Source: Phycisphaerales bacterium
GTDB taxonomy: Bacteria; Planctomycetota; Phycisphaerae; Sedimentisphaerales; Anaerobacaceae
Assembly: GCA_003141315.1 (NCBI GenBank)
Contig: PLLP01000002.1
Location: 274,338 to 338,337 of the forward strand
Length of the DNA stretch: 64,000 nt
Direction: 5' to 3'
Shown: positions 12,033 to 46,443 of the stretch, piece after piece
How the letters are laid out: the number at the start of each line of letters is the position of its first letter
Position numbering within the stretch: the stretch's first letter is position 1
Program-made: the position numbers and the translations under genes
Notes under the pieces: generated by a model
Database searches by the model: none
What the model was told of the DNA's origin: nothing
What the model saw: only the letters and a program-made list of their open reading frames with translations

Positions 12033-12144
12033 GCTGACTTTGGACTGTTAGGGAATTTCCAGTTGTTTTATGTGTGCTTTTTTATATAATACACTGCTTT
12101 CGGGTGGCAGGTATTGTGCCTTCAAACAATTTAGGAGTAAAAGA

Positions 12145-14922
12145 ATGAAGACAAAACTTACAGTTCGTTTAATTCCGGCATTATTAATCCTTATAACCGC
12201 TGTGCTTTTCTGCACGGCCTGTGCAGTTCAATCCGCTGATACCAGCGGCGCCGCTTTGGGTGCGAATCTCGCGGTCGTGGCGAACCCGACCAGCTCTTAT
12301 GTTTCCGGCGATACCACGCTCGCTGCACTTAATGATGGCTTCGACCCGAAGGACTCGCAGGATGACAGCCACCGCTCTTACGGCAACTGGAACAGGACAG
12401 GCAAACAGTGGGTTCAGTACGAATGGAGCCAGCCAATCAGCACCAGCAAAATAGATGTCTATTGGTGGGCTGACGGGCAGGGCGTGCATGCGCCGAAGGC
12501 AAGCCGGCTGTTTTACTGGGATGACGGCGAATTTGTCCCTGTGAAAAATGCGACAGGTCTCGGCGTTGCCGAAGATAAATATAACACAACGACCTTTGAT
12601 GAAATCACAACCAAAAAAATCAGGCTCGAAATGGATGCCGATGGCACGTTCTCTACGGGCATTCTCGAATGGAAGGTTTATGATTCAGGCAAGTCGCCTG
12701 ATTTTCCGCCCACGGCAGAGGCAGGCGGTGACCGCGTAGTTATGCTGAACGGCAAGACTTACTTGAGTGGAAAATATAAGACATTCGAGGGCAAAGGCGG
12801 CGCATCGACAAAGGTCGAGTGGAGCAAGGAATCCGGCCCCGGCACAGTCACCTTCGCAAATGCAAACGCGGCGGTGACAACGGCGACGTTCTCCGCCGTC
12901 GGCGATTATGTCCTGAAGCTCACGGCCAGCAAGGCCCCGCTAAGCGCATCATCTACCTTAAATGTCAAAGTGGAAGCACCACCGGCTGAGAAACACTTAG
13001 AAATGGTTTATACCAAAAAATTCAAGGTCAATAGTCCCCTCTGGAACAGCAGGGTTAAGGCGTTAATTGTGAACTGGATTCCTCATTGCATCGACAAGAA
13101 TAACGACCCGAATCTGCGTGAAGGCGGAATGAATAATTTCGATGATGCCGCCAAAAAATTACAAGGTAAACCCGCCGGCAGACACAGAGGCTATCCATTC
13201 TCGAATGCGTGGGTGCACCAGACGGTTGAGGCGATGAGTATTGCGCTTATGGTTGACCCGCAGGGCGACCCTGACATTATAAAAGCGCAGGCGAAAATGC
13301 GGGCGACTCTCGATGACTGGATTCCGAGAATTCTTGCCGCCCAGGAGCCTGACGGCTATCTCCAGACACGTTTCACTCTCGATACCCGTGGCGCAAAACA
13401 CTGGGACCCTGAAACCAGGAGCGAGCATGAAGGTTATGTCGCCGGCTATTTTATCGAATCCGCTATTGTTCACTACCTGATGACGGAAAAGAAAGATGCC
13501 CGTTTGTATAATGCCGCCAAAAAATTAGCCGACTGCTGGTATAACAACATCGGCCCAGCCCCGAAGAAGGAATGGTTCGACGGCCACCAGGAGATGGAGC
13601 AGGCCCTCGTGCGGTTCGGGCGGTTTGTAAATGATATGGATGGCCCGGGTAAAGGCGACAAGTATATCGAGCTTGCGAAGTTCCTGCTCGATTGCCGAAA
13701 GGACGGCGCAGAATACGACCAGAGCCATCTGCCGGTAATTCAGCAGTATGAAGCGGTCGGCCACGCCGTTCGCGCAATCTATACCTATTCGGGTATGTCC
13801 GATGTAGCGATGGAGACAGGCAATATCGATTACCAGAGCGCCGTTATGTCGCTGTGGGATAATATCGTAAATAAAAAATATTACATCACCGGCGGCGTCG
13901 GCAGCGGTGAATCTTCCGAAGGTTTCGGCCCCAACTACTCGCTCGGCAATGGCGCCTATTGCGAGGCCTGTTCGAGCTGCGGCGAGATGTTCTTCCAGCA
14001 AAAACTGAATATGGCTTACCGCGATGCCAGGTATGCCGACCTTTACGAAGAAGCGTTTTATAATGCCCTGCTCGGCTCAGTTGACCTCGAAGGCAAAAAC
14101 TTCTATTATCAGAATCCTCTCGATGAGAGGGGTGTGCGTTATAACTGGCACGTCTGCCCGTGCTGCGTCGGCAACATTCCGCGAACGCTGCTGATGCTGC
14201 CAACCTGGACATACGTCAAAAGCGATGACGGCATTTACGTCAACCTCTTCATCGGCTTCACTACTACAATCGAAGGAATCGCAGGCACAGATGTCGAAAT
14301 GGTGCAGCAGACCGATTACCCCTGGAACGGCAAGGTTGCCATCACAGTCAATCCGAAAGCCGAGAAAAAATTCAGTATTAATATCAGGGTGCCGCATCGC
14401 GACGTTAGCAGCCTTTACAAGGCTGATACGAATGCCGACGGCATCACCTCGATTTCAGTTAACGGTTCGGTGATACAGCCGAAGATTGAAAAAGGCTACG
14501 CCATAATCACCCGCGACTGGAAGGCAGGCGACAAGATAGAGCTGGTTTTGCCGCTGAAGGTTCAGCGCGTCAAGGCGAGCGAAAATATCAAAGCCGATAT
14601 CGGCAAAGTTGCGCTGCGGTATGGCCCGCTTGTTTATAACGTCGAGCGGGTTGATAATAATAATGTCGGCAAGGTTCTGAATCCGAATTCTGCCTTGACT
14701 ACCGAGTGGGCCCCCGGCGTATTGGATGGCGTTATGTTAATAAAAGGCACCTGGGCTGACGGCACACCATTGATGGCGATTCCGAATTACGCCAGGTGCA
14801 ATCGCGAACCAGAGCGGTCCGGCGCGGGCGGATTCGGCGGGCCCGGCGCAATGGGCGGCGGCATGGGTGGACGAAGAGGCTCTCGCCTGCCAAGTTCTAT
14901 CGTTTGGATTAAAGACAAGTAA
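12145..14922 (+). CDS. GH127 family beta-L-arabinofuranosidase-type lipoprotein
   Basis: 925 residues from ATG 12145 (AGGAG 8-9 bases before); upstream in-frame starts lack a ribosome site. The N-terminal signal ends near FCTACAV, a likely lipoprotein signal. Residues ~30-190 look like an F5/8-type C (discoidin) carbohydrate-binding domain, ~195-285 like a PKD-type domain. The GH127 (DUF1680) barrel follows from ~290. Cys606-Glu607 and Cys609 (YCEACSSCG) and Cys671-Cys674 (CPCCVGNIPR) match the zinc-binding Glu/Cys set and nucleophilic cysteine of GH127. The last ~40 residues are glycine/methionine-rich. Expected role: release of beta-linked L-arabinofuranose from plant or glycoprotein glycans outside the cytoplasm. 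The GH51 gene at 30494 fits the same pathway. Confidence 0.9.
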   Translation: MKTKLTVRLIPALLILITAVLFCTACAVQSADTSGAALGANLAVVANPTSSYVSGDTTLAALNDGFDPKDSQDDSHRSYGNWNRTGKQWVQYEWSQPISTSKIDVYWWADGQGVHAPKASRLFYWDDGEFVPVKNATGLGVAEDKYNTTTFDEITTKKIRLEMDADGTFSTGILEWKVYDSGKSPDFPPTAEAGGDRVVMLNGKTYLSGKYKTFEGKGGASTKVEWSKESGPGTVTFANANAAVTTATFSAVGDYVLKLTASKAPLSASSTLNVKVEAPPAEKHLEMVYTKKFKVNSPLWNSRVKALIVNWIPHCIDKNNDPNLREGGMNNFDDAAKKLQGKPAGRHRGYPFSNAWVHQTVEAMSIALMVDPQGDPDIIKAQAKMRATLDDWIPRILAAQEPDGYLQTRFTLDTRGAKHWDPETRSEHEGYVAGYFIESAIVHYLMTEKKDARLYNAAKKLADCWYNNIGPAPKKEWFDGHQEMEQALVRFGRFVNDMDGPGKGDKYIELAKFLLDCRKDGAEYDQSHLPVIQQYEAVGHAVRAIYTYSGMSDVAMETGNIDYQSAVMSLWDNIVNKKYYITGGVGSGESSEGFGPNYSLGNGAYCEACSSCGEMFFQQKLNMAYRDARYADLYEEAFYNALLGSVDLEGKNFYYQNPLDERGVRYNWHVCPCCVGNIPRTLLMLPTWTYVKSDDGIYVNLFIGFTTTIEGIAGTDVEMVQQTDYPWNGKVAITVNPKAEKKFSINIRVPHRDVSSLYKADTNADGITSISVNGSVIQPKIEKGYAIITRDWKAGDKIELVLPLKVQRVKASENIKADIGKVALRYGPLVYNVERVDNNNVGKVLNPNSALTTEWAPGVLDGVMLIKGTWADGTPLMAIPNYARCNREPERSGAGGFGGPGAMGGGMGGRRGSRLPSSIVWIKDK

Positions 14923-22943: not shown

Positions 22944-24356
22944 TCAAACTTCCTGTGCTTCTGACAGAACCTCTGCGGTCATAAATTTGTTTGTGTTTTT
23001 CAGAAGTCTTACTTTGACTAACTGGTTTCTTGTTATTGACTTATCCGGGTTTTCAATCTGCACGTAAAAATATCTTCTGCATCGGCCTGAAACTGAACCA
23101 TCTTGTGGTGAGCTTGTCGAACCATTGACGGTTTCTGTTAAAATAATCTCCTCGCATCCTTCAAACTGCTGACGGAATTGGAAGCCGAGTTCGGCGTCGA
23201 GCTTTTGCAGAATCTGCGACCTTTTTTTTGCGACCGCCGGCTTGACCGCAGGTCTTATATTGGCTGCTGCCGTATCTAACCGCGGTGAAAAATTAAATAT
23301 ATGCATCTTCGCAAACCCCGCCTGCCTTGCCAGCATTACCGTTTGCTCAAAATCCTCATCCGTCTCGCCCGGGAAACCCACGATTAAATCGCAGGTAATG
23401 GCAGGCCTGTCCAACCGTCTCTTTATCAGCCCTATCTTCTCCAATATATCCGCCCGCCTGTATTGTCTGCACATTTTTTTTAGGACGTTGTCCGAGCCGG
23501 ATTGTATCGACAAATGCAGGTGCGGCATAATGTTGGTATTATTGCAGAAGCAATCCAAAAGCCTTTCGGTCACATCAGCAGGTTCAAGAGAACTTAACCT
23601 GATTCGCGCCAGGTTCGGTATTTTGGCCAGTTTTTCGAGCAATTCCGGCAGTTTATCATTTTGCTGACCGGGCCATTTCTTTCGCAGGACGGTATCCTGG
23701 CCGAAAGCGCCCAAAAAAATTCCGGTTATGACAATCTCTTTATGTCCAGCATTTACAAGGGCTTGTGCCTCTTTAAGCACATCTGAGGCCTCTTTACTGC
23801 CCACTTTTGGCCTCGTTTTTGGTATAATGCAGTAGCTGCAGCAGCCGTCGCAGCCGTCCTGAACCTTTAAAAATGCCCTTGTTTGACCATCAAAAGATGT
23901 TAATAAGGAAAGAAAGGGCAAATTGGGGTAATTGTTCTTGATTTGGCAGCCGTTTCCTGCTTTAATCTCTATATCCGGCTGCTCTTGTGCAGGATTATTT
24001 CCGGCTGATGGGATGTTGCCGGTTATTTGGTTTAAAGTCGGGACAAGATTATTTCGATTTGTTATTAGGTGGATGTTCTGCGTCCCTAAGTTGTTTAGTT
24101 CTCCGGTGTTAACGGCAGTGAGGCAGCCGCAGACGACCACTTGGGCATCAGGGTTTGCTTTTATCGCCCGGCGAATGGATTGCCGGCTTTTGACGGTTGC
24201 CGTGTGGGTGACGCAGCAGGTATTTATTACTATCAGTCGGCTTTGTTCCGCCGGCCGGGCCTGCGACCAACCGAGGCCTTCGAGATGCTGGCGTATCTGC
24301 TGGCTTTCGTACTGGTTGACCTTGCAGCCGACAGTTTTGATGGAAAAAGTTTTCAT
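22944..24356 (-). CDS. mtaB: tRNA t6A37 methylthiotransferase MtaB
   Basis: 470 residues, slightly long for the family (about 430-450). The N-terminal UPF0004 domain opens MKTFSIKTVGCKVNQYESQQ with its cluster cysteines; the radical SAM motif is CDGCCSYC (around residue 170), followed by IIPKTRPKVGS. The C-terminal ~70 residues are a TRAM-type RNA-binding domain. It adds a methylthio group to t6A37 in tRNAs that read ANN codons. Within the TRAM region the segment VNGSTSSPQDGSVSG is encoded partly by the dispersed TGGTGAGCTTGTCGAACCA repeat (23106-23124), which looks like an in-frame insertion. The TVGCKVNQYES start favours MtaB over MiaB or RimO. Confidence 0.9.
   Translation of the reverse strand: MKTFSIKTVGCKVNQYESQQIRQHLEGLGWSQARPAEQSRLIVINTCCVTHTATVKSRQSIRRAIKANPDAQVVVCGCLTAVNTGELNNLGTQNIHLITNRNNLVPTLNQITGNIPSAGNNPAQEQPDIEIKAGNGCQIKNNYPNLPFLSLLTSFDGQTRAFLKVQDGCDGCCSYCIIPKTRPKVGSKEASDVLKEAQALVNAGHKEIVITGIFLGAFGQDTVLRKKWPGQQNDKLPELLEKLAKIPNLARIRLSSLEPADVTERLLDCFCNNTNIMPHLHLSIQSGSDNVLKKMCRQYRRADILEKIGLIKRRLDRPAITCDLIVGFPGETDEDFEQTVMLARQAGFAKMHIFNFSPRLDTAAANIRPAVKPAVAKKRSQILQKLDAELGFQFRQQFEGCEEIILTETVNGSTSSPQDGSVSGRCRRYFYVQIENPDKSITRNQLVKVRLLKNTNKFMTAEVLSEAQEV
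23106..23124. repeat. TGGTGAGCTTGTCGAACCA palindromic repeat inside mtaB
   Basis: The 19-base sequence ends in the inverted pair TGGT/ACCA and matches a repeat core also seen, as GGTGAGCTTAGTCG, at 59953-59966 and within the attC at 35461-35474. It lies in the coding part of the TRAM domain without breaking the frame. Confidence 0.65.
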
Positions 24357-24547: not shown

Positions 24548-26821
24548 ATGGCCACAGAAATCAGTTCTGTCTGGGCAGTTGACCTCGGAAGCAATTCGCT
24601 CAAGGCCTTAAGGCTTTCAAACACCGCGGGCGTCGTCGAAGTTATCGATTTCGATGTGATAGAGCACGGCAAGATACTTTCAGGCAAGGGCGTCGAGCAG
24701 CTCGAAAAGCAGGAGTTGATAGCCCTTACGCTTCGCCAGTTCCTTCAGAACCACAGCCTCGATAAAGACGCTGTAATCATATCATTACCCAGCCAGAACA
24801 GTTTTGCCCGTTTTGTTAACCTGCCGCCCGTTGAACCCAAAAAGATTCCGGAAATCATCAGGTTCGAGGCCGTTCAGCAGATACCGTTCGATATAAACGA
24901 TGTCCAGTGGGATTGGCAGATTATGGAAAAAGATGCCGGCGGCGAAAACCGCGTCGGAATCTTTGCCATCAAAAATGATGTAATAAATTCCACAATAGAG
25001 CATTTCCAGCGGGAAGACATCCAGATTCGCTACATACAGATGTCGCCGATGGCGCTTTACAATTATGCCATTTACGACCGCGCCGACCTCGCACAGGCAG
25101 CCGATGACGAGGCAATAGTTGTGCTGAATATCGGGGCAGAATACACAGACCTGGTTGTCTGCACAAAGTCGAGCGTTTGGCAAAGGTGCATCCCGATGGG
25201 CGGCAACACCTTTACAAAGGCTGTTGCGGATGCGTTTAAGCTGCCCTTCGAAAAGGCGGAAAAGCTCAAACGCAACGCCACGACCAGCAAATACGCACGC
25301 CAGATTCTGCAGGCGATGAAGCCGGTGTTTTCAAACTTTGCTTCTGAAATCCAGAGGTCAACGGGTTTCTACGGCAGCTCCAATCCGAAAACAAGGATTG
25401 TCAAAATGATAGCCCTGGGAGGCTGCACGCGGATGAGAGGCCTTTTAAAATATCTCCAGCAGAGCATACAGATTCCGATTGAAAGGCCAGATTCCTTCGA
25501 GAAGCTTCCATTATCGCCCGATGTGTCGGCGGTAAAATTCCACGATTGTGTCTGCGACCTCGGAATCGTTTATGGTCTCGGGCTGCAGGCCCTCGGGGCA
25601 GCTAAAATCGAAAGCAACCTGCTGCCTCGCAGTATTGCAAGGTCTGCGATGTGGAAGAGCAAAGCGAAATATTTCTATGCCGCTGCCTTTGTCCTTATTC
25701 TTGTTTCTGCTCTGGCGTTTCTGCGGGTCGTCGTTGACAAGGCCAGCTATGCAGGCAAAAAATCAATAAGAACAGAGATTGACTCCGTCATTTCTGAAGC
25801 AGGACGGGCAAAACAACTGTTGGACCAGGAGCAGGCAAAGGAGCCGCTTGCAATGGCTGATATTAATAAGGAGTTTGACATATTCCAATACAGGGATGTG
25901 ATACCTTATTTGATGCAGGCTATACTGTCTGCCCTGCCTAACGAAAAAAATAATCCTGACCAGGCGGGATTATACCAGGCTTTTGAGGCCGGCAATGTTG
26001 ACGAATTAACAAAGACCGAACGGGGACAGCGAAAGCAGATATTTGTGACGAGTATGTCTATTCATTTTGTCGAAGATTTGTCCGCAGCCTCTTTTGATGA
26101 CCAGGCGATAGGTGTCAGAATAACCGCTCGAACCGTTAGTGCGGGCTCCCGTGCAAGCGCTGCCAACACCAGGCGAAGGGGGCTTGAGGAACTTATGAAC
26201 AAGAGGACCGGCGGCGCACAACAGCAGGCAAAGGAGGAGGCCGAAACAACGACCGAAGAATCTCAGGTTCAGCCTGAAACCGCTGCCAGCAACGCCGGTT
26301 TTATCGTCACCATTGTCGGGTACAGTCCTTATAAGAATATTGGCAGACTCTTTGATCCTCTCGGCGTAGGCCAGGACACCAGCCAGTGGGGTTTTATTAC
26401 CCGCCTTAAAAATCTTAATAAAATTTCGGATATAAATTCGTTTGTCCTCTTTGATGCCAACAGCATTAGGAATTTTACATATAAAATCGATAACGAGGTG
26501 ACCTTTGATGATACACCTGCCGGCGTTGGTATTGTGAGCCAGAGGGTTATTGATGTCAAAAAAGATACTGCCGCTGAGGGAAGACAGAATGTCGGAGGTT
26601 TGTCGCTGATGCAGGGAAATAAAATTACCGAGGATATACTCATCGACCCTATGACCCGGGAAATAATTAACAAGGTCATCAAGTATAATGAGGATGGAAG
26701 CAAAAAAATAGAAAATGGAAAAGTCGTCTACGAAGTCAACGACCACTGGTTTGAAATAAAGGCCAAATTCCTCTGGAAAAATGTGCCGAAGCAAATAGCT
26801 GCTCTGGCTCAGAAAATGTAA
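24548..26821 (+). CDS. PilM-PilN fusion protein, type IV pilus/secretion platform
   Basis: 757 residues. Residues 1-~350 are a PilM-type actin-like ATPase domain: SVWAVDLGSNSLKALRLS (phosphate 1), IVVLNIGAEYTDLVVCTKSS (phosphate 2) and MIALGGCTRMRGLLKYLQQS (adenosine). At residues 357-361 the sequence NLLPR appears, followed by a basic stretch and one membrane helix (~375-395). This is the hallmark of the N-terminus of PilN, which in other bacteria is a separate protein whose INLLP tail binds PilM; here the two are fused. The remaining ~360 residues would be periplasmic, with a coiled stretch and a Q/E-rich linker (547-575). Heads a three-gene operon whose other two proteins also have a single N-terminal helix. 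Confidence 0.8.
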   Translation: MATEISSVWAVDLGSNSLKALRLSNTAGVVEVIDFDVIEHGKILSGKGVEQLEKQELIALTLRQFLQNHSLDKDAVIISLPSQNSFARFVNLPPVEPKKIPEIIRFEAVQQIPFDINDVQWDWQIMEKDAGGENRVGIFAIKNDVINSTIEHFQREDIQIRYIQMSPMALYNYAIYDRADLAQAADDEAIVVLNIGAEYTDLVVCTKSSVWQRCIPMGGNTFTKAVADAFKLPFEKAEKLKRNATTSKYARQILQAMKPVFSNFASEIQRSTGFYGSSNPKTRIVKMIALGGCTRMRGLLKYLQQSIQIPIERPDSFEKLPLSPDVSAVKFHDCVCDLGIVYGLGLQALGAAKIESNLLPRSIARSAMWKSKAKYFYAAAFVLILVSALAFLRVVVDKASYAGKKSIRTEIDSVISEAGRAKQLLDQEQAKEPLAMADINKEFDIFQYRDVIPYLMQAILSALPNEKNNPDQAGLYQAFEAGNVDELTKTERGQRKQIFVTSMSIHFVEDLSAASFDDQAIGVRITARTVSAGSRASAANTRRRGLEELMNKRTGGAQQQAKEEAETTTEESQVQPETAASNAGFIVTIVGYSPYKNIGRLFDPLGVGQDTSQWGFITRLKNLNKISDINSFVLFDANSIRNFTYKIDNEVTFDDTPAGVGIVSQRVIDVKKDTAAEGRQNVGGLSLMQGNKITEDILIDPMTREIINKVIKYNEDGSKKIENGKVVYEVNDHWFEIKAKFLWKNVPKQIAALAQKM

Positions 26822-26853
26822 TTGTTCGTATTGTTTCTGACAGGTAATTATTT

Positions 26854-28104
26854 ATGGATTTATCGCCTATCAAAAAAATATTTCAGAAATTCGCGAGCCT
26901 CAGGGATTATTCGTCGCTGATTATTCCTGGAGTCCTGGCAATCCTGGCAGCGCTGCTTTTTATCCCGACCACTCTTATGCAGCACAGTCTCGATTCGAAG
27001 ATGGACAAGGAAAGCCTGTCGAAAGCAAAAACATTGGATTCTCTCGGCAGGGATACTCCATCCGGCAGGCAATGGCAGGTGCTGTTAGACCGTCAGAATT
27101 CCATTCAGAATGATGCAAATAAAATTGTGCAACTGGCTGAACAGAGCAGCCGGCGGGAATTAATCAGCTATGACGTATTCCCGGCACCAAAGGAAACTTC
27201 ACCCCGGCTTTTCGGGCAGTTTGGCCAGAAGTATCGTGCCGCAATCGACGCCTGGGCTTTGAATCTGAAGGCCCGCAGCTGTCCTACGCAGGCGGAATTG
27301 AGCAAAAGCCTTAACAGGTCGTTTACTACTGTAGGCTCCAATTCAGATTCAGGCCTGCAGGAAACCGACAAGATTATCATCGACCACGTATGCAGAGAAG
27401 TGGCACAATCCGTAAAGGTCTATTTTGACCCTGCTAATATCCCCGGATACAAGACCTGGGAAAATTATGAATACAGCGACCAGGTGAAGGCCGTCGAGGA
27501 TTGCTGGTACTGGCAGATTGCCTACTGGGTTATCGAAGACTGTTTCCAAACCGTAAAAACCCTCGATGCCGGTTCAGCCAACGTCCTTGATGCTCCCGTA
27601 AAAAGGATAGTGGATATTGGCTTTGCCGCCGCTCCCTCTTCCGCTCAAGGCTCGACAGCGATGACGCAGTCCGCTTCTGCAAAGGCGGAAAAACCGGGTT
27701 ATATTACTTCGCTTCGGGCAGGCCTGACGCTGCCTCTTACGGCCAGGGTTTCCAATGACAGGTTGGATATTGTGCATTTCAGGCTCTCCGTTATCGTGAG
27801 TGCAAAAGCCGTTCCTCTCTTCCTGCAGCAGCTTTGCACAGGAAAGGAACACAAATTCAGGGGCTTTAACAATGATTTGCCGGAAAAAACGTTTTACCAT
27901 AACCAGATAACAATTCTGAAATGCGACTTCGACGCGATTAATCCCGAAGATAATGATAATAAATTGTATAGATTCGGCTCTGACGGCGTTGTTAAGCTCG
28001 ATTTATTTTGTGGGTATATTTTCGATAAAAATGGATATGATGATGTAAAGCCTCCCTCTGTGAAGAACGACCTTGAAAGCAGACTTGCCAAGGCTAACCA
28101 ATAA
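26854..28104 (+). CDS. Single-pass periplasmic protein, PilO/GspM-like position
   Basis: 416 residues, 32 bases after the PilM-PilN gene. Short cytoplasmic start (MDLSPIKKIFQKFASLRDYS), one membrane helix (~21-41, LIIPGVLAILAALLFIPTTL), a coiled-coil stretch (~45-100), then a large periplasmic part. No family match is certain, but topology and gene order correspond to PilO/GspM-type proteins that assemble with PilN at the inner membrane. The last third (VSNDRLDIVHFRLSVIVSAK then FLQQLCTG) may be the ferredoxin-like fold typical of PilO. Function inferred from context. Confidence 0.6.
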   Translation: MDLSPIKKIFQKFASLRDYSSLIIPGVLAILAALLFIPTTLMQHSLDSKMDKESLSKAKTLDSLGRDTPSGRQWQVLLDRQNSIQNDANKIVQLAEQSSRRELISYDVFPAPKETSPRLFGQFGQKYRAAIDAWALNLKARSCPTQAELSKSLNRSFTTVGSNSDSGLQETDKIIIDHVCREVAQSVKVYFDPANIPGYKTWENYEYSDQVKAVEDCWYWQIAYWVIEDCFQTVKTLDAGSANVLDAPVKRIVDIGFAAAPSSAQGSTAMTQSASAKAEKPGYITSLRAGLTLPLTARVSNDRLDIVHFRLSVIVSAKAVPLFLQQLCTGKEHKFRGFNNDLPEKTFYHNQITILKCDFDAINPEDNDNKLYRFGSDGVVKLDLFCGYIFDKNGYDDVKPPSVKNDLESRLAKANQ

Positions 28105-28158
28105 TTGATTTTAAGGGTTTATTATTCTTATTGTCTGAAAATTTTTGTGAGCGTATAT

Positions 28159-30087
28159 ATGGCCAGTAGAGAAGAAAGCTTTTTCGAGAAACATATAGAG
28201 AAAATAGTTTTGTTGGTTGTCTGTGTTATTTCCGCTGCTCTGCTCGTCTATTATGTCTTTCTCGGGCCGTGCAATGTTGCTTACCAGGGGAAAAAACTCG
28301 GTCCGTCAGCGGTTGACCAGGTCGTTTTGAAAAAGGCTCAAACTGTAAGAGAAGCCCTCGACAAAAAACCTGTTCCGGTTGCCCCGTATCAGGCCAAATT
28401 AGGCGATTTTGCCAAAGAATTGAAGAGTTCTTCGGTTGTTCTCGATAAAAGTTTGTATCCGCAGATTCCACCTTATATTCAATCGACCGGGCCTTCGCCC
28501 AAATACAGCCTGCCGGAAATACCGGCTATTGAAAATGCACAGGTCGATTATTTCAGAACCGTTGCCTATGTCCCGATGAGGGAAATTAATCAGCAAAATG
28601 CCTATAACCAGGCCGGCTCGGAACCTAATGATATTGACATCGTCACCGTTGAATTCCGGTTTGATGTGGCGGCTCTGTATAAAGCGTTTAGCGATTGTTT
28701 CGCCGGAACAAGAATTAAAGAGCAGTGGCGGGATAAAACACTCGCCGAACCTGTATTTGCCGCTGTTCAGCTCCAGAGACAAGAGATCGCTCCTGACGGG
28801 AGTTGGCAAGCGAACTGGGAAGATGTCCCCAGGTGCAAAATTGATCCATACAGACAGATTCTCGATGTAACTGAAGATGTCGGAAACCTTCCGACCGGCG
28901 GCCTCCAGGTAAGGCTGCTGCAGTACAGGGAAAAGGCTGTCCAGATGGACCTCATTCAGCCCGAATGTTATCGAATTGCATCCGCAAGGGAAGAGTGGTT
29001 TCCGCCCTCTCTGCACCCGAGATATAAAACAATTCTTGACGATGAGACGCGAAAGAAAAAACGTGAATCGACCGCTTCCACCAAACAAGCGGGAACTGTT
29101 ACTAGGCCAGGACCTGACAACCCGGACGGAACGCCTGGGCGGCCCATCGGTGTAGTGCCGGCAAAGACAACCCCGACGGTCCCTATGTCGGAAATTGAGC
29201 AGACGCCCGCATTCATACAGTTTTATAAGGATTACGATAAAATTCTGATTTCCGATAAAACCGACCTTTCAAAAACTACAGACCCTGTGACGTTCTGGGC
29301 GTTCGATGATACTGCACAGCCCGCCAAGCAATACAGATACAGGGTCCGGCTCGGCATTTTCAATCCAATAGCCGGCACAGACCAGTTCGCCGACGGTAAA
29401 ACGCCTTTGAAAGATAAGGTTATAATGTGGACTAACTTTGCGGAACCGCAGTCTGCCGCCGGCGGGGTGCAGATACCTGCCAGGCAGTATTTCTTCGCAC
29501 AGGCTATCGAAGAACTCAAAAAGAGGGTGACGGTTCTGGTTGCCTGCTACAAACTCGGCAGCTGGTACACCAAAGATTTTAAGGTTACTCCAGGCGATTC
29601 CATAGGCCAGAGAATCGAAAAAACCAGCGATGAAAATGGAAGTGAAGACGATAATCTTGCCGCTTTATTATCGCCGGGAAGCGTTAGAAAGCCGGCGGAG
29701 GTTGATTACTCAACGGGAGAGGTTCTGCTCGACGCCGTTCAGATGACCGAGTGGTCGGGAGGCTCCACTCTTTATCCTCGCCCGTACTTCCAGATACTTT
29801 ACAGCCGCGACGGTTCCGAAATTTTCAGGATGCCTGTCGGCGACAAATATTGGCCGGATAACCTGCACGAGGCCTATTACGCGGCCAAAGCCGGTGAAAA
29901 TACTCCGAATACGCTCAAAGAAGCCTTCAAGGTTTTTGGCGAGGGAAGGCAGGGTATAAAACAAAAAATCATCGACCAAAAACAGCAGCAAACCCCAGCG
30001 ACTTCTCCGGCTTTGAAGGGAGTGGACCCTGCGTTGCTTGAACTGATGAGAAAGAGAATGGGTGGCGCTCAGCAGCAGCAAAATTAG
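28159..30087 (+). CDS. Large single-pass periplasmic protein of the PilM operon
   Basis: 642 residues from ATG 28159; the frame extends 18 codons upstream but without a better ribosome site. One membrane helix at ~15-35 (IVLLVVCVISAALLVYYVFL), then a long periplasmic region with a proline-rich linker (~310-350) and mixed beta segments. The C-terminus ELMRKRMGGAQQQ (from residue 628) closely matches ELMNKRTGGAQQQ in the PilM-PilN protein of the same operon (residues 548-560), hinting at a shared binding motif or common ancestry. No PilP/PilQ domain was recognised. Likely part of the same envelope machine. Confidence 0.6.
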   Translation: MASREESFFEKHIEKIVLLVVCVISAALLVYYVFLGPCNVAYQGKKLGPSAVDQVVLKKAQTVREALDKKPVPVAPYQAKLGDFAKELKSSSVVLDKSLYPQIPPYIQSTGPSPKYSLPEIPAIENAQVDYFRTVAYVPMREINQQNAYNQAGSEPNDIDIVTVEFRFDVAALYKAFSDCFAGTRIKEQWRDKTLAEPVFAAVQLQRQEIAPDGSWQANWEDVPRCKIDPYRQILDVTEDVGNLPTGGLQVRLLQYREKAVQMDLIQPECYRIASAREEWFPPSLHPRYKTILDDETRKKKRESTASTKQAGTVTRPGPDNPDGTPGRPIGVVPAKTTPTVPMSEIEQTPAFIQFYKDYDKILISDKTDLSKTTDPVTFWAFDDTAQPAKQYRYRVRLGIFNPIAGTDQFADGKTPLKDKVIMWTNFAEPQSAAGGVQIPARQYFFAQAIEELKKRVTVLVACYKLGSWYTKDFKVTPGDSIGQRIEKTSDENGSEDDNLAALLSPGSVRKPAEVDYSTGEVLLDAVQMTEWSGGSTLYPRPYFQILYSRDGSEIFRMPVGDKYWPDNLHEAYYAAKAGENTPNTLKEAFKVFGEGRQGIKQKIIDQKQQQTPATSPALKGVDPALLELMRKRMGGAQQQQN

Positions 30088-30493
30088 TCGTTAGTTTTTG
30101 GTATTTAGTCGTAAAGAATCTGTGTTAATCTGTGAAATCTGTGGCTTATTTTATTCCATTTTTTCTTTTTGTGCCTTTTTGTGGCCAAATTAGTCGTTAG
30201 TTCGCCACACGAATGGCGAATCTTCGATATTTAGTCCGCTTCAGGTTCGTCTGTGGCGAATCTTCTGCCTTCTGTCCTCCGTCATCTGCTTCTCCCACCC
30301 TTCTCGCTTTTCACACCTTTCTAACTCTTCGCACCTTTCTCACCATTTCCTAATTACCAATTACCGGGTGGACAAGCACCTGACGTTCAGCTATTATATC
30401 CATCTCAAAAGGGACCCTTCGCACTTCACTCTTAACTGTTAAGGGTGAAGCGTTAAGGGGTAAGTGTGATTGTTTGGAAAGGGGTATGATAAT
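30088..30493. repeat. Repeat-filled intergenic region before the GH51 gene
   Basis: No gene seen. It is packed with dispersed repeats: a TTAGTCGTTAGT-type unit (about 30090 and 30190), an ATCTGTGTTAATCTGTG unit (30117-30145, also at 54699-54725), a diverged CGCCACACGAATGGCG copy (30203-30227), pyrimidine-rich TCTCACC/TTTCTAAC runs and TTAAC units just before the gene. The GH51 promoter must lie here but no clear -35/-10 pair stands out. Confidence 0.7.
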
Positions 30494-32986
30494 ATGAAAT
30501 CCAGATTTTTCACTTTGGCAATTATGTTTCTGGCGGCTTGTTTCCTGTTCAGTTGTCAAAAACCGCTCGATGCGAGCAGCGCAGCGAGTCCGCCGGAAAA
30601 GGCGGTTAATCCCGTGAACCCCGTTAAAAACTCCGTTTCTAACGGGGCACCAAATCCTTCTTTCGAGCAGGCGGGCAGAAACAATCGGCCCGCACAGTGG
30701 CGGACAAACAACTTCGGCGGTAAGGCCGCCTTCGAATACGCCAACATCGGTCATACGGGCCAGAAGTCTGTTCTCGTCAGCTCAGAAGAGGGCGCCGATG
30801 CGGGCTGGTCGGCCAATGTGCCGCTGGAACCTTTCGCTCATTACAAATTTACCGGCTGGATTAAAACCGAGAACCTCACTGTAAAAGACGGCGCATTCGG
30901 CGCACTTTTCAATTTTCAAAACATAGAATCTCACACAAAGCCTCTTACCGGCACTAACGACTGGACGAAAGTCGAATGCGAATTCGATACCGGCTCTATG
31001 GACGGCGTACAGGTGAATTGTCTTTTTGGCGGCTGGGGTCTGGCGACAGGAAAGGCCTGGTATGATGATGTGAATTTCGAGCTGCTCTCGAAAATCAAAA
31101 TAGACCCTGATGCCGTTATAGACGTCTCCAAAAAACGGCAGCCAATTTCCAAATATATTTACGGCCAGTTCATCGAACATCTTGGCAGGTGCATTTACGG
31201 CGGTATCTGGGCGGAGATGCTCGAAGATAGAAAATTCTGGTATCCTGTTAACGAATCTTTCGACCCGAACGCAGGGGCGGGAAATCCCTACAGGCCGATA
31301 AGCAAATCACCCTGGAAAATAATCGGGGATAAAGAAAATGTCACGATGACCAAAGAAAACGCTTATGTCGGCGAGCATACGCCTGAAATTAAAATCAATG
31401 AAGGCGCTCCCGCCGGGATTGCACAGGGAGAACTGGCGGTTATAGAGGGCAAAAAATATGTCGGAAGGGTCGTGCTTTCCGGCGATGAAACCGCCGGGCC
31501 TGTGAAGGTCAGCCTTGTCTGGGGACAGGGGCCGGCAGACAGAGCCTCGATGGAAATCGAAAAAATAAGTGCAGAATACAAAAAGTTCCCGTTCGAGTTG
31601 ACGGCAAAGGCCGCGACCGACAATGCAAAACTGGAAATCACCGCTTATGGCAAGGGAAAGCTGCGGGTTGGAACCGCTTCGATAATGCCCGCGGATAACA
31701 TCAAAGGTATGCGGGCAGATACGATAAAACTGCTCAAGGAGCTTAATTCACCTGTTTACCGCTGGCCGGGCGGCAATTTCGTCAGCGGCTATAACTGGCG
31801 AGACGGCATCGACCCCGACCGCGACAAGAGACCGCCCCGTAAGAACCCCGCCTGGACGGGCGTCGAGCATAACGACTTCGGAATGCACGAGTATTTTATT
31901 TTCCTCGCGGAGGTTAACTCAGAGCCGTTCATCGCGCTTAATGCCGGCACGGGCTCTTCGGAATCTGCTGTAGAGGAGTTGGAATACGTCAACGGAAACG
32001 CGGATACCCCGATGGGCAAACTCCGCATCGCAAACGGCGGGCCTGCCGAACCGTGGAAATGTAAATACTGGGCAGTCGGAAACGAGATGTCCGGCAATTG
32101 GCAGCTTGGAAGTGTGCCGCTCGACCAGTTTATTAAAAGGCATAATGAATTTTCCGCAAGGCTGCTCAAGGTTGACCCGACAATCAAGCTCGTCGCTTCC
32201 GGCGAAGCAACCAATGGAAGTGTGAATGACTGGGATAAAAAATTGCTGGCAGGCGCCGCCGACTATATCAACCTGATTAGCAAGCACTTTTACTGCCAGG
32301 ACTATCGCGCCAGCGGGCTAATGTCGCATGTAATGCTGGTGCCGGAATCGATTCGCCGAATCGCGCAATCGCACCGCACTTATCTTGAGACGATACCTGA
32401 AATCAAGGATAAGGATATCAAGGTCTCGCTCGATGAATGGAACTATTGGTACGGCCCGCACGTTTTCGGCGAGCTCGGCACGCGATATTTCCTCAAAGAC
32501 GGACTCGGCATCGCCGCTGGAATAAACGAATACTCACGCAACACGGATGTAATCTTTATGGCCAATTATGCGCAGACGGTCAACGTCATCGGCTGTATAA
32601 AGACAAGCAAGACGGCGGCTGAATTCGAGACAACGGGGCTGGTGCTGAAATTGTATCGCAATGAATATGGCACGATACCTGTCGAGGTGGGCGGCAAACC
32701 ATTGCCGCTGGATGTCGCCGCTGCATTAACGGCGGATGCAAAGAAACTTACCATAAGCATCATCAACCCGACCGACAAGGAAGTGAAGCTGCCGCTTGAG
32801 ATTAAAAATATTAAACTGTCAGGTAGTGGCAGGATGTGGGTAATGACCGGCAGCGACCCGCTCGCCTATAATGAGCCGGGCAAACCCCGTAGGGTCGATT
32901 TCGTTGAAAAGCCGGTTAGCGAAATTTCAAAAACGCTTACCGTCCCGCCGATGAGCGACTCCTTGTATGTTCTGGAGATTAAATAA
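30494..32986 (+). CDS. GH51 family alpha-L-arabinofuranosidase-type lipoprotein with CBM-like domain
   Basis: 830 residues from ATG 30494 (GAAAGGGG ribosome site). Lipoprotein signal MKSRFFTLAIMFLAACFLFSC. Residues ~60-195 resemble a CBM4/9-type sandwich (NPSFEQAGRNNRPAQWRTNN opening). The catalytic barrel follows: FIEHLGRCIYGGIWAEMLED, PVYRWPGGNFVSGYNWRDG, then WAVGNEMSGNW with the general acid/base Glu531 and KVSLDEWNYWYG with nucleophile Glu648. Length and motifs fit GH51 exo-arabinofuranosidases that cut alpha-linked arabinose from arabinan or arabinoxylan. Residues ~42-52 (NPVKNSVSNGA) are encoded by a short palindromic element. A strong terminator follows. Confidence 0.92.
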   Translation: MKSRFFTLAIMFLAACFLFSCQKPLDASSAASPPEKAVNPVNPVKNSVSNGAPNPSFEQAGRNNRPAQWRTNNFGGKAAFEYANIGHTGQKSVLVSSEEGADAGWSANVPLEPFAHYKFTGWIKTENLTVKDGAFGALFNFQNIESHTKPLTGTNDWTKVECEFDTGSMDGVQVNCLFGGWGLATGKAWYDDVNFELLSKIKIDPDAVIDVSKKRQPISKYIYGQFIEHLGRCIYGGIWAEMLEDRKFWYPVNESFDPNAGAGNPYRPISKSPWKIIGDKENVTMTKENAYVGEHTPEIKINEGAPAGIAQGELAVIEGKKYVGRVVLSGDETAGPVKVSLVWGQGPADRASMEIEKISAEYKKFPFELTAKAATDNAKLEITAYGKGKLRVGTASIMPADNIKGMRADTIKLLKELNSPVYRWPGGNFVSGYNWRDGIDPDRDKRPPRKNPAWTGVEHNDFGMHEYFIFLAEVNSEPFIALNAGTGSSESAVEELEYVNGNADTPMGKLRIANGGPAEPWKCKYWAVGNEMSGNWQLGSVPLDQFIKRHNEFSARLLKVDPTIKLVASGEATNGSVNDWDKKLLAGAADYINLISKHFYCQDYRASGLMSHVMLVPESIRRIAQSHRTYLETIPEIKDKDIKVSLDEWNYWYGPHVFGELGTRYFLKDGLGIAAGINEYSRNTDVIFMANYAQTVNVIGCIKTSKTAAEFETTGLVLKLYRNEYGTIPVEVGGKPLPLDVAAALTADAKKLTISIINPTDKEVKLPLEIKNIKLSGSGRMWVMTGSDPLAYNEPGKPRRVDFVEKPVSEISKTLTVPPMSDSLYVLEIK
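30619..30647. mobile_element. 29-bp CCCCGTTA...TAACGGGG element inside the GH51 gene
   Basis: Arms CCCCGTTA (30619-30626) and TAACGGGG (30640-30647) enclose AAAACTCCGTTTC. It has the same length as the copy at 7962-7990 and reads N-P-V-K...S-N-G, the same frame as the larger copy in the endonuclease III-like gene. It falls in the linker between the lipobox and the CBM-like domain, where extra residues would be harmless. The flanks are not clearly duplicated. Confidence 0.65.
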
Positions 32987-43452: not shown

Positions 43453-46443
43453 ATGACAGCACCGAAAGAAATTCTGCGGCTTGTAGAAATCTTTGAAAGT
43501 AATATCGAAACCTACAAAACAAGCCAGCTTTATAATGAGGCACAGCTTCGTCGGGAATTCATAGACCCTTTCTTTGATGCCCTCGGCTGGGACATAACAA
43601 ATAAACAGGGATTTGCCCCCGCATACAGAGAAGTCATAAATGAAGATGCTATCAAGGTTGGTTCTGCCACAAAAGCGCCCGACTATTGTTTCCGCATCGG
43701 CAGCACCCGCAAATTCTTTGTCGAGGCCAAAAAGCCCGCTGCTGACATAAAAAATGACTCTGAACCCGCTTACCAGCTTCGCCGATATGCCTGGTCTGCA
43801 AAACTGCCTCTCTCAATCCTTACCAACTTCGAGGAATTTGCCGTCTACGATTGCCAGGTTCGGCCAAATGTAAACGATAAGCCATCGACAGCAAGGATTT
43901 TTTTCTGCGGCTATAAGGAATACGGCGATAAGTGGGAACAAATCGCGAATATATTCAGCAAAGAATCGGTACTTAAAGGATTATTCGATAAATACGCATC
44001 AGAAAAGACAACAAAAAGAGGCACAACTACAGTAGATAAAGAGTTTCTGGCCGAGATAGAAGAATGGCGGAACGAACTGGCAAAAAATATTGCGATTCGC
44101 AACAGTAAACTATCCGTTTATGACCTTAATTTCGCGGTTCAAAAGACCATCGACAGGATTTTGTTTTTGAGGATATGCGAAGACAGAGGCATAGAACGCA
44201 GCAAACAGCTTTTAGGGCTTATTAACGGCAACCGGATATATCCGCGGCTTTTTGAGCTTTTTGAAAAGGCCGATGAAAAATATAATTCCGGTATTTTTCA
44301 TTTTCGCAGGGAAAAAGACAGGCCGGAATCACCTGACGAGATGTCGGCAAATCTAAAAGTCGATGATGACGTCCTAAAAAAAATCATCAAAGATTTATAC
44401 TATCCGTGCCCTTATGAATTTTCCATTATGCCGGCGGAAATTCTGGGCAATGTTTATGAGCAGTTTTTGGGCAAGGTGATTCGGCTTACCGCTTCTCATC
44501 AGGCAAAGGTTGAGGAAAAGCCGGAGGTTAAAAAGGCGGGCGGGGTTTATTATACGCCTTCGTATATTGTCGATTACATTGTAAAAAATACAGTCGGCAA
44601 ACTTTGCGAAGACAAAACGCCGAAACAGATTGAAAAGATTAAAATTCTTGACCCGGCGTGCGGAAGCGGTTCGTTTTTAATCGGGGCATATCAGTATCTT
44701 TTGGATTATCACAGGGATTATTACGTTAAAGAGTCCGCGAAACATCGTAAGCAGGTTTATCAGGGTAAGGGTGGGTTGTGGTTTTTAACGATTGATGAGA
44801 AAAAACGGATTTTGTTAAATAATATTTACGGCGTCGATATAGATTCGCAGGCGGCAGAGGTAACGAAATTAAGCCTTTTGTTAAAGGTTCTTGAAAATGA
44901 GACGCAGGAGAGTTTAAGACTGTTTCATGAACGTGCGCTGCCGGATTTAGGAAATAATATCAAGTGCGGCAATTCTCTGATTGGGCCGGATTTTTACCAG
45001 AATCAGCAATTAAACCTTTTTGGCGATGAGCAGCAGAGAAAGATAAACGCATTCGACTGGCAGGCGGAATTTGCGGAAATCTTTTCGGGCAAAAATCCGG
45101 GCTTCGATGCCGTCATAGGTAACCCGCCTTGGCTAATGGCTGGATATTATGTATCGGACGAATTGGATTATCTTCGACATACATTTGGATCGGCTTATGG
45201 GAAATTTGATTTGTATTACCTTTTTATTGAAAAAGGATGTCAGCTATTCTCAGAAAAAGGTTTGTTTGGAATGATTGTTCCTAATAAATTTTTTCATACT
45301 AAAGCCGCAGTAAACCTTCGCAACTTTTTATCTAGTTCAAGATTGATAAATAGTATTGTTGATTTTGGGGATGAGCAAATTTTTTCTGGTGCAACAAATT
45401 ATTCTTGTATGCTTTTTTTACAGAGAGGGACAAAACAAAATCTTACATTTGCAAAAGCTAAAAAGGAATTGAGAATATACCAAGAACTTAAAATATCCCA
45501 ATCCATTCTCGCATCAGATTCCTGGCATTTTGAAGAACAAACTACCTACGAGCTTTTTGAAAAAATCCATAAACAAGGTTCATTTCTTCAGGATGTAACC
45601 TCGCGTTTTGGTACGGGAGTCCAAACTGGGGCAGATAGCATATTTACTATTGATTATAGCCTTGTAAAAACTAGCAAATTGGAAACTGAAATTCTTCGGC
45701 CTTTATTGAGGGGACGCGATGTTCGTCGTTATAAAACTAGCGATAACCCAAAATTCTTGATTTTTCCTTATAAAATCCAAAATACTGAATTTGTTATATT
45801 GGAAGAATCCGAACTTAAAAAATATCGAAAAGTGTATAACCTGCTATGCGAAAATAAGTCTAAACTTGCGGAGCGAATTTGGTTCGGTAAAAAAGCGATA
45901 GACTTGTCTGGTGAATGGTATGGCGTGATGTATTTAGACTCATGTACTTCTTTTGCTTTACCACACATTCTAACGCCTTCTCTAAGTAATCGTTCTAATT
46001 TTTCGTTAGGTACAGATGAACTATTCTCTACCGGTACTGCGGGAGTAACGTCTATTATTCCAAAGAAAGATATTGGTGAAAATATCCTGTATCTTCTGGG
46101 TCTATTGAATTCAAAACTTATCAGTTTTTATATAACAAGTCATAGCCCCATTTTCTCTGGAGGTTATTACAAGTTTAGCGCACCTTATCTTAAAAAAATT
46201 CCTATTAAACGCATCAATTTCACTGATAAATCTGACACGTCCAATCATGACAAAATGATTTCGTTTGTCGAGCAGATGTTGGAGTTGCATAAAAAGATTT
46301 CGAAGATAAAGAATCCTGATGAAAAGACGCGGATTCAGCGGCAGATTGATTCCACCGACCGGCAAATCGACCAGCTTGTTTATAAGCTTTACGATTTAAC
46401 GCCGGAGGAAATCGCAATAGTGGAGGCGGGGAATAGTTGCTAA
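43453..46443 (+). CDS. Eco57I-type single-chain restriction-modification enzyme (type IIG-like)
   Basis: 996 residues. The N-terminal nuclease-like domain has Asp77 and Glu91-x-Lys93 (PDYCFRI … FFVEAKK), a PD-(D/E)xK arrangement. The N6-adenine methylase core has motif I DPACGSGSF (Asp400-Phe408) and motif IV NPPW (Asn557-Trp560). Residues ~700-950 form a TaqI-C-like target recognition domain, lower in G+C than the rest. The C-terminal helical end (RQIDSTDRQIDQLVYKLYDL) is usual for the family. One polypeptide would both cut and methylate a short asymmetric DNA site, protecting against phage. No separate methylase or specificity gene lies beside it. A degraded coding remnant follows. Confidence 0.9.
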   Translation: MTAPKEILRLVEIFESNIETYKTSQLYNEAQLRREFIDPFFDALGWDITNKQGFAPAYREVINEDAIKVGSATKAPDYCFRIGSTRKFFVEAKKPAADIKNDSEPAYQLRRYAWSAKLPLSILTNFEEFAVYDCQVRPNVNDKPSTARIFFCGYKEYGDKWEQIANIFSKESVLKGLFDKYASEKTTKRGTTTVDKEFLAEIEEWRNELAKNIAIRNSKLSVYDLNFAVQKTIDRILFLRICEDRGIERSKQLLGLINGNRIYPRLFELFEKADEKYNSGIFHFRREKDRPESPDEMSANLKVDDDVLKKIIKDLYYPCPYEFSIMPAEILGNVYEQFLGKVIRLTASHQAKVEEKPEVKKAGGVYYTPSYIVDYIVKNTVGKLCEDKTPKQIEKIKILDPACGSGSFLIGAYQYLLDYHRDYYVKESAKHRKQVYQGKGGLWFLTIDEKKRILLNNIYGVDIDSQAAEVTKLSLLLKVLENETQESLRLFHERALPDLGNNIKCGNSLIGPDFYQNQQLNLFGDEQQRKINAFDWQAEFAEIFSGKNPGFDAVIGNPPWLMAGYYVSDELDYLRHTFGSAYGKFDLYYLFIEKGCQLFSEKGLFGMIVPNKFFHTKAAVNLRNFLSSSRLINSIVDFGDEQIFSGATNYSCMLFLQRGTKQNLTFAKAKKELRIYQELKISQSILASDSWHFEEQTTYELFEKIHKQGSFLQDVTSRFGTGVQTGADSIFTIDYSLVKTSKLETEILRPLLRGRDVRRYKTSDNPKFLIFPYKIQNTEFVILEESELKKYRKVYNLLCENKSKLAERIWFGKKAIDLSGEWYGVMYLDSCTSFALPHILTPSLSNRSNFSLGTDELFSTGTAGVTSIIPKKDIGENILYLLGLLNSKLISFYITSHSPIFSGGYYKFSAPYLKKIPIKRINFTDKSDTSNHDKMISFVEQMLELHKKISKIKNPDEKTRIQRQIDSTDRQIDQLVYKLYDLTPEEIAIVEAGNSC

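Follow-up and report, generated by a model that had tools for sequence, protein, structure and literature searches.

Organization of the locus

We analysed a stretch of 64,000 nucleotides (hereafter the window) from the Phycisphaerales bacterium assembly GCA_003141315.1 (contig PLLP01000002.1, positions 274,338 to 338,337, forward strand), in which three co-directional genes probably encode part of an envelope apparatus derived from type IV pili. The open reading frame (ORF) listing gives the boundaries shown in Table 1 for genes 1 and 2, and 28105-30087 for gene 3. Gene 1 starts with ATG and is preceded by the sequence AAGAAGG. The ORF of gene 3 opens at a TTG codon (28105, 660 aa), and the true start is probably the ATG at 28159, because the N-terminus conserved among its relatives begins there; the gap of 54 bp that results fits the median among the relatives. 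The first-pass annotation, made from the sequence of the window, had described a three-gene operon in which a PilM domain fused to a PilN-like segment is followed by two single-pass membrane proteins. Genes 2 and 3 do encode such proteins, and the arrangement is kept across Planctomycetota: among 69 loci carrying the fused gene, gene 2 lies downstream in 65 and gene 3 in 58, with median intergenic gaps of 42 and 55 bp. Shuffled sequences contained promoter-like sites at least as often, and terminator-like sites more often.

Table 1. Genes of the operon and features of the gene 1 product (window coordinates; AF2, AlphaFold2; TM, transmembrane helix)
Feature	Position	Strand	Description	Basis
Gene 1	24548..26821	+	757 aa; PilM domain, PilN-type peptide, membrane helix and predicted periplasmic part	Pfam PilM_2, NCBIfam Amuc_1101_fam, profile match, AF2 model
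PilM domain	24578..25588	+	Residues 11-347; actin-like fold	PF11104, 121 bits; Z 34.0 to 2ych
NLLP motif	25616..25627	+	Residues 357-360; putative PilN-type PilM-binding peptide	>90% conserved, 49 relatives
Membrane helix	25664..25723	+	Hydrophobic, approximately residues 373-392	Hydropathy in relatives; long helix 361-398 in model
Periplasmic part	25955..26818	+	Residues 470-757; predicted alpha/beta, PilN-core identity unproven	AF2 model
Gene 2	26854..28104	+	416 aa; single-pass, predicted Amuc_1100/PilO-type periplasmic fold	AF2 model, fold match
Gene 3	28159..30087	+	642 aa from the conserved start; single-pass, split fn3-like domain, Amuc_1099/PilP position	Conserved start and TM; fn3 in relative L105

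Gene 1 joins PilM to a PilN-type N-terminus

The AF2 model of the gene 1 product (predicted local distance difference test score, pLDDT, 83.8) superposed on PilM 2ych over 326 residues at 2.9 Å. Directly after the PilM_2 domain comes the conserved N357-L-L-P360 motif and then one hydrophobic helix, as the first-pass annotation had noticed (NLLPR and a membrane helix). In the model the motif leads into a long helix that includes a hydrophobic stretch; more helices and the alpha/beta part come next, and in the latter residues 522-578 are a low-confidence insert. A profile built from 35 gene 1 relatives matched PilM of 3jc8 (E 8.6e-57), and positions 347-461 of the same profile matched PilN residues 3-115 (E 2.5e-5). 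Because both proteins are matched within one chain, the junction is, on profile evidence, PilM covalently joined to the N-terminal half of PilN, comprising the binding peptide, the transmembrane helix and the coiled coil. The covalent PilM-PilN contact proposed earlier is thereby borne out, and the check proposed with it, for a PilN-like fold after the helix, had a mixed outcome: the N-terminal half of PilN was matched by profile, and the periplasmic core found no profile match. The gene 1 model also aligned through residue 361 with 5eou, an engineered PilM:PilN(1-12) crystal construct (Z 33.7); that join is laboratory-made, whereas the join in gene 1 is natural and includes the helix and the periplasmic part.

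The Pfam PilN core (PF05137) had no match in gene 1 at E <= 1. Profile-profile comparison of the periplasmic part with canonical PilN, PilO and gene 2 yielded no usable signal, and against gene 2 nothing rose above column-shuffled controls. PilN and GspL periplasmic domains were absent among the matches shown for the full-length gene 1 fold search, which was dominated by PilM, FtsA, MreB and Hsp70, so that their absence is no evidence against such a domain. The modelled order of helices and strands in the periplasmic part appears to resemble that of gene 2, whose PilO-type fold is supported (see below).

The fused gene is widespread in Planctomycetota

The best NCBIfam match of gene 1 was Amuc_1101_fam (NF045709; 206.7 bits, E 7.5e-61, residues 36-495), with the pilM model scoring lower (121 bits). 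Amuc_1101_fam matched all 35 divergent relatives of gene 1, and in a shorter one (locus L105, 603 aa) the match spanned residues 30-595. In 35 of 35 divergent homologues the PilM domain, the membrane helix and the periplasmic part belong to one chain, so the fusion is, judging from these sequences, a family trait and not a product of chance or assembly. Homologues at E <= 1e-15 were present in 326 of the 392 sampled Planctomycetota genomes. A profile search of 20 genomes lacking such a homologue gave matches in 19; several were canonical PilM or GspL-like, and many lay in frames of 550-670 aa extending beyond the PilM domain. The earlier reading of gene 1 as an isolated natural fusion consequently gives way to one of a standard architecture in a family (the Amuc_1101_fam relatives) found across the Planctomycetes-Verrucomicrobia-Chlamydiae (PVC) group. 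The fused design itself is not new, since GspL of type II secretion, an older precedent, likewise unites in a single polypeptide an actin-like cytoplasmic part, one helix and a periplasmic part; gene 1 differs from it in its complete PilM-type domain and in having no GspL model match over the cut-off.

Separately, Pfam PilN matches were found at three loci of other Planctomycetota (L202, L212 and L223), in frames of 590 aa with an NLLP motif at about residue 390-400; these may be additional fusions, PilM-PilN or GspL-type, that belong to a different lineage.

Genes 2 and 3 encode putative partner proteins

Pfam and NCBIfam gave no matches to gene 2 or gene 3 of the window, and sequence-profile searches of the PDB with both produced nothing meaningful. 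The AF2 model of gene 2 (pLDDT 87.6) was more informative. The ten best Foldseek matches were Amuc_1100 chains, with PilO next. With a structural aligner, Amuc_1100 was the best of all PDB chains ranked (Z 12.5, 172 residues, 3.7 Å); PilO 2rjz followed at Z 7.4 (92 residues, 2.5 Å), a value slightly below the Z trusted alone and above all unrelated folds, which reached at most 4.7. These comparisons of a predicted structure support an Amuc_1100/PilO-type fold for gene 2. The Amuc_1100 family model (NF038287) gave weak matches in 3 of 29 gene 2 relatives (best E 0.0035). Genome-wide searches with Amuc_1100_fam and Amuc_1099_fam returned only matches below the cut-off, which lie elsewhere wherever the position of the operon is known. 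Gene 2 profile matches to the genome's own PilO-type proteins (E 5.8e-4) did not recur in profile-profile comparison and were not used.

Gene 3 has one N-terminal membrane helix and a large part predicted to be periplasmic, and it occupies the position of Amuc_1099, or of PilP in ordinary pili. The short gene 3 relative in L105 contains an fn3 domain (E 1.9e-7), the two halves of which align to residues 149-406 of the window protein with a long insert between them. The Amuc_1099 model found one gene 3 relative at E 0.036, too weak to use, and its genome-wide matches involved a single short region and, where the positions were compared, did not point to this operon.

A TPR-secretin is linked to the operon in distant relatives

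At five loci (L097, L100, L101, L102 and L105), which belong to four families far from the order of the window, the operon is closely followed on the same strand by a secretin of 850-950 aa; in L100 and L105 a tetratricopeptide repeat (TPR) protein comes next. The best NCBIfam match of the L102 secretin was Amuc_1098_fam (128 bits), and in the L105 secretin TPR repeats precede the secretin domain, the arrangement described for Amuc_1098 (PMC4960237). The gene order at these loci, fused PilM/N, PilO-like, gene 3 and TPR-secretin, equals the 1101-1100-1099-1098 order of the Akkermansia cluster (PMC5332112, PMC10688800).

No secretin lies beside the operon of the window. The secretin of the window's genome most similar to the operon-linked ones is a TPR-secretin of 1071 aa on another contig (C10:192956-196168). 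In the secretin tree it formed one group (100/99) with the operon-linked secretins, to the exclusion of the five other secretins of the genome; these five are long-branched, and only this main split was used. A TPR-secretin of the C10 type was present in 77 of 78 genomes of the order, and in the closed genomes G127 and G311 it lies megabases away from the operon. The outer-membrane pore serving the operon in the window's genome would then be the C10 TPR-secretin.

Two further observations concern the surroundings of the TPR-secretin. Beside it (L059:8527-15501, C10) is a gene for a protein of 2324 aa with subtilase, fn3, VWA and InlB-type repeat domains, possibly a cargo or surface protein of the same system. 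An open frame just upstream (about 419 aa; C10:191431-192366) is similar to the N-terminal part of the secretin (31% over residues 45-360) and is perhaps a duplicated TPR piece.

The operon as a probable inner-membrane core related to Amuc_1098-1101

The best match of gene 1 to Amuc_1101_fam, the Amuc_1100-like fold of gene 2, the gene order, the secretin tree and the phylum-wide conservation make it fairly probable that the operon encodes the PilM/N-PilO inner-membrane core of a PVC-wide, type-IV-pilus-derived envelope apparatus related to Amuc_1098-1101 (MUL2). On this reading the window holds a divergent form, spread through the phylum, of a known kind of apparatus whose pore gene has moved away in this order. 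Akkermansia muciniphila Amuc_1098-1102 (MUL2, with Amuc_1101 as MUL2B) likewise has a fused PilM-type protein with an Amuc_1100-type fold adjoining it, and the distant Planctomycetota loci keep the same gene order with the TPR-secretin last; the window differs in that its proteins score far below the Amuc family cut-offs, gene 3 has roughly double the 321 positions of the Amuc_1099 model and the secretin is unlinked. The type IVa pilus series PilM-PilN-PilO-PilP-PilQ is matched in the PilM fold, the PilN peptide and helix and the PilO-type fold, and in distant relatives the parts stand in the same order with the secretin last. In contrast to that series, PilM and PilN form one chain here, gene 3 is unrecognisable as PilP, the secretin is a TPR-secretin and no motor or pilin is nearby.

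Several results weigh against this assignment. The score of gene 1 is below the curated Amuc_1101_fam equivalog cut-off (650 bits), so that by sequence it is a distant relative and not a member of the equivalog. Its periplasmic part gave no match to the PilN core in profile-profile comparison. NF038287 did not match gene 2 of the window, and gene 3 has no significant sequence match to Amuc_1099. The secretin is unlinked to the operon in this order, and its partnership is one that we infer. The function proposed below for the operon in planctomycetes is a candidate one.

In the apparatus we propose, gene 1 would supply an actin-like, probably ATP-binding PilM domain that may use ATP and would be permanently tethered to the membrane because the PilN-type peptide and the helix belong to the same chain. 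The fusion would hold PilM and PilN to a 1:1 ratio. If type IV pili are taken as the guide, the actin-like domains would form a ring beneath the cytoplasmic membrane, fixed to a periplasmic cage built from the remainder of gene 1 together with gene 2, which as the PilO/Amuc_1100-type partner should pair with the gene 1 periplasmic part. In ordinary pili the contact of PilM with PilN is non-covalent, whereas the fused PilM would tie the cytoplasmic ring permanently into the cage. Gene 3 is expected to reach toward the outer membrane and to bridge to the secretin, and the complex would connect the cytoplasm with the secretin as in type IV pili. To judge from Akkermansia, its most likely task is to bind or take up surface polymers, for example glycans; the MUL2 locus of Akkermansia and Akkermansiaceae has been tied to mucin transport and glycan attachment (PMC13174399).

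Other pilus and type II secretion parts and alternative readings

A whole-genome search for secretins, GspE/PilB-type ATPases and N-methyl pilins placed none inside the window. The first-pass annotation had noted the lack of a pilin, PilQ or motor, and this stands for the window but not for the genome, which elsewhere carries 6 secretins, 8 full-length PilB/GspE-type ATPases and 23 N-methyl pilin matches over the cut-off. The genome also has two further PilM loci and one GspL-like locus. One 19-kb region (L053, C20:10000-29000) held PilM, a PilN match and PilB- and PilT-type ATPases, with no secretin match in the 19 kb read. At L057:6270-9869 (C22) a GspD-type secretin of 1199 aa was found, with no GspE-type ATPase match on that small contig.

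The supply of PilB/GspE-type and PilT-type ATPases and of many pilins, together with PilM and PilO folds that match pilus proteins, would suit a second alignment complex for ordinary type IV pili, in which the fused module would join a standard motor (PilB/PilT) and N-methyl pilins, both encoded elsewhere, to build a normal retractable attachment pilus. We regard this as unlikely: in both further PilM loci PilM already adjoins PilN- and PilO-sized genes, the secretin associated with the operon is of the different, TPR-bearing type, and none of the loci that were inspected by gene size and family shows a motor or pilin next to the operon.

A divergent type II secretion platform, with genes 1, 2 and 3 as GspL, GspM and GspC and protein export through the TPR-secretin, is very improbable. 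The design that gene 1 shares with GspL, the known relationship of the GspM and PilO folds and a weak T2SSM match in a distant gene 2 relative (E 0.016) speak for it; T2SSL, however, reached only 19.7 bits on gene 1 (cut-off 25.5) against 121 for PilM_2, the NCBIfam GspL model (TIGR01709) did not match, and a separate GspL-like gene stands beside GspD and GspE on C10. Equally hard to credit is a mainly structural clamp holding the outer and cytoplasmic membranes together without transport or filament, which would accord with the near-universal presence of the module, its lack of linked motor or cargo genes and the resemblance of planctomycete crateriform complexes to press-stud connections of two membranes (PMC5394234), but which sits poorly with a pore from the secretins, a family that passes cargo or filaments, and with the link of Akkermansia MUL2 to mucin transport.

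A possible relation to crateriform structures

If the operon encodes the core of a MUL2-related apparatus, the module has a bearing beyond Akkermansia, whose Amuc_1100 has attracted much work on how it affects host metabolism and whose MUL2 locus was described from Verrucomicrobiota. That a related module occurs in almost all Planctomycetota suggests that the PVC group has an old envelope machine with a general role independent of a gut host. We know of no protein identified in the crateriform structures of planctomycetes. The three genes and the secretin offer a concrete candidate for the make-up of these structures, and also for the passage of large polymers across the planctomycete outer membrane. 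Planctomycetota take dextran into the periplasm in a manner sensitive to carbonyl cyanide m-chlorophenyl hydrazone (CCCP), and crateriform structures, which join the outer and cytoplasmic membranes and may carry fibres, are suspected of a part in uptake (PMC5394234); a secretin-based complex that is nearly universal is for these reasons a natural candidate. That the operon and the unlinked TPR-secretin form the core of the crateriform structures, with the Akkermansia mucin apparatus as a lineage-specific version of a PVC-wide polymer-acquisition machine, is a testable speculation to which we assign a low probability. The present data contain no direct tie between the operon and these structures, and our literature search found no paper that connects a bacterial secretin with crateriform structures, or Planctomycetota with Amuc_1100.

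Neighbouring genes

The operon is flanked in the window by an arabinofuranosidase-type gene and, on the opposite strand, by a radical-SAM/UPF0004 (methylthiotransferase-type) gene. The latter (22944-24356) is divergent and directly upstream of gene 1, and elsewhere in the order a divergent ORF of about 460-530 aa often occupies this place (e.g., L050, L071-L075). Two arabinofuranosidase-type enzymes, GH127 and alpha-L-arabinofuranosidase, are encoded near the operon (12070-14922 and 30470-32986). Further downstream, positions 43453-46443 encode an Eco57I/TaqI-type restriction-modification protein of 996 aa with an HSDR_N part.

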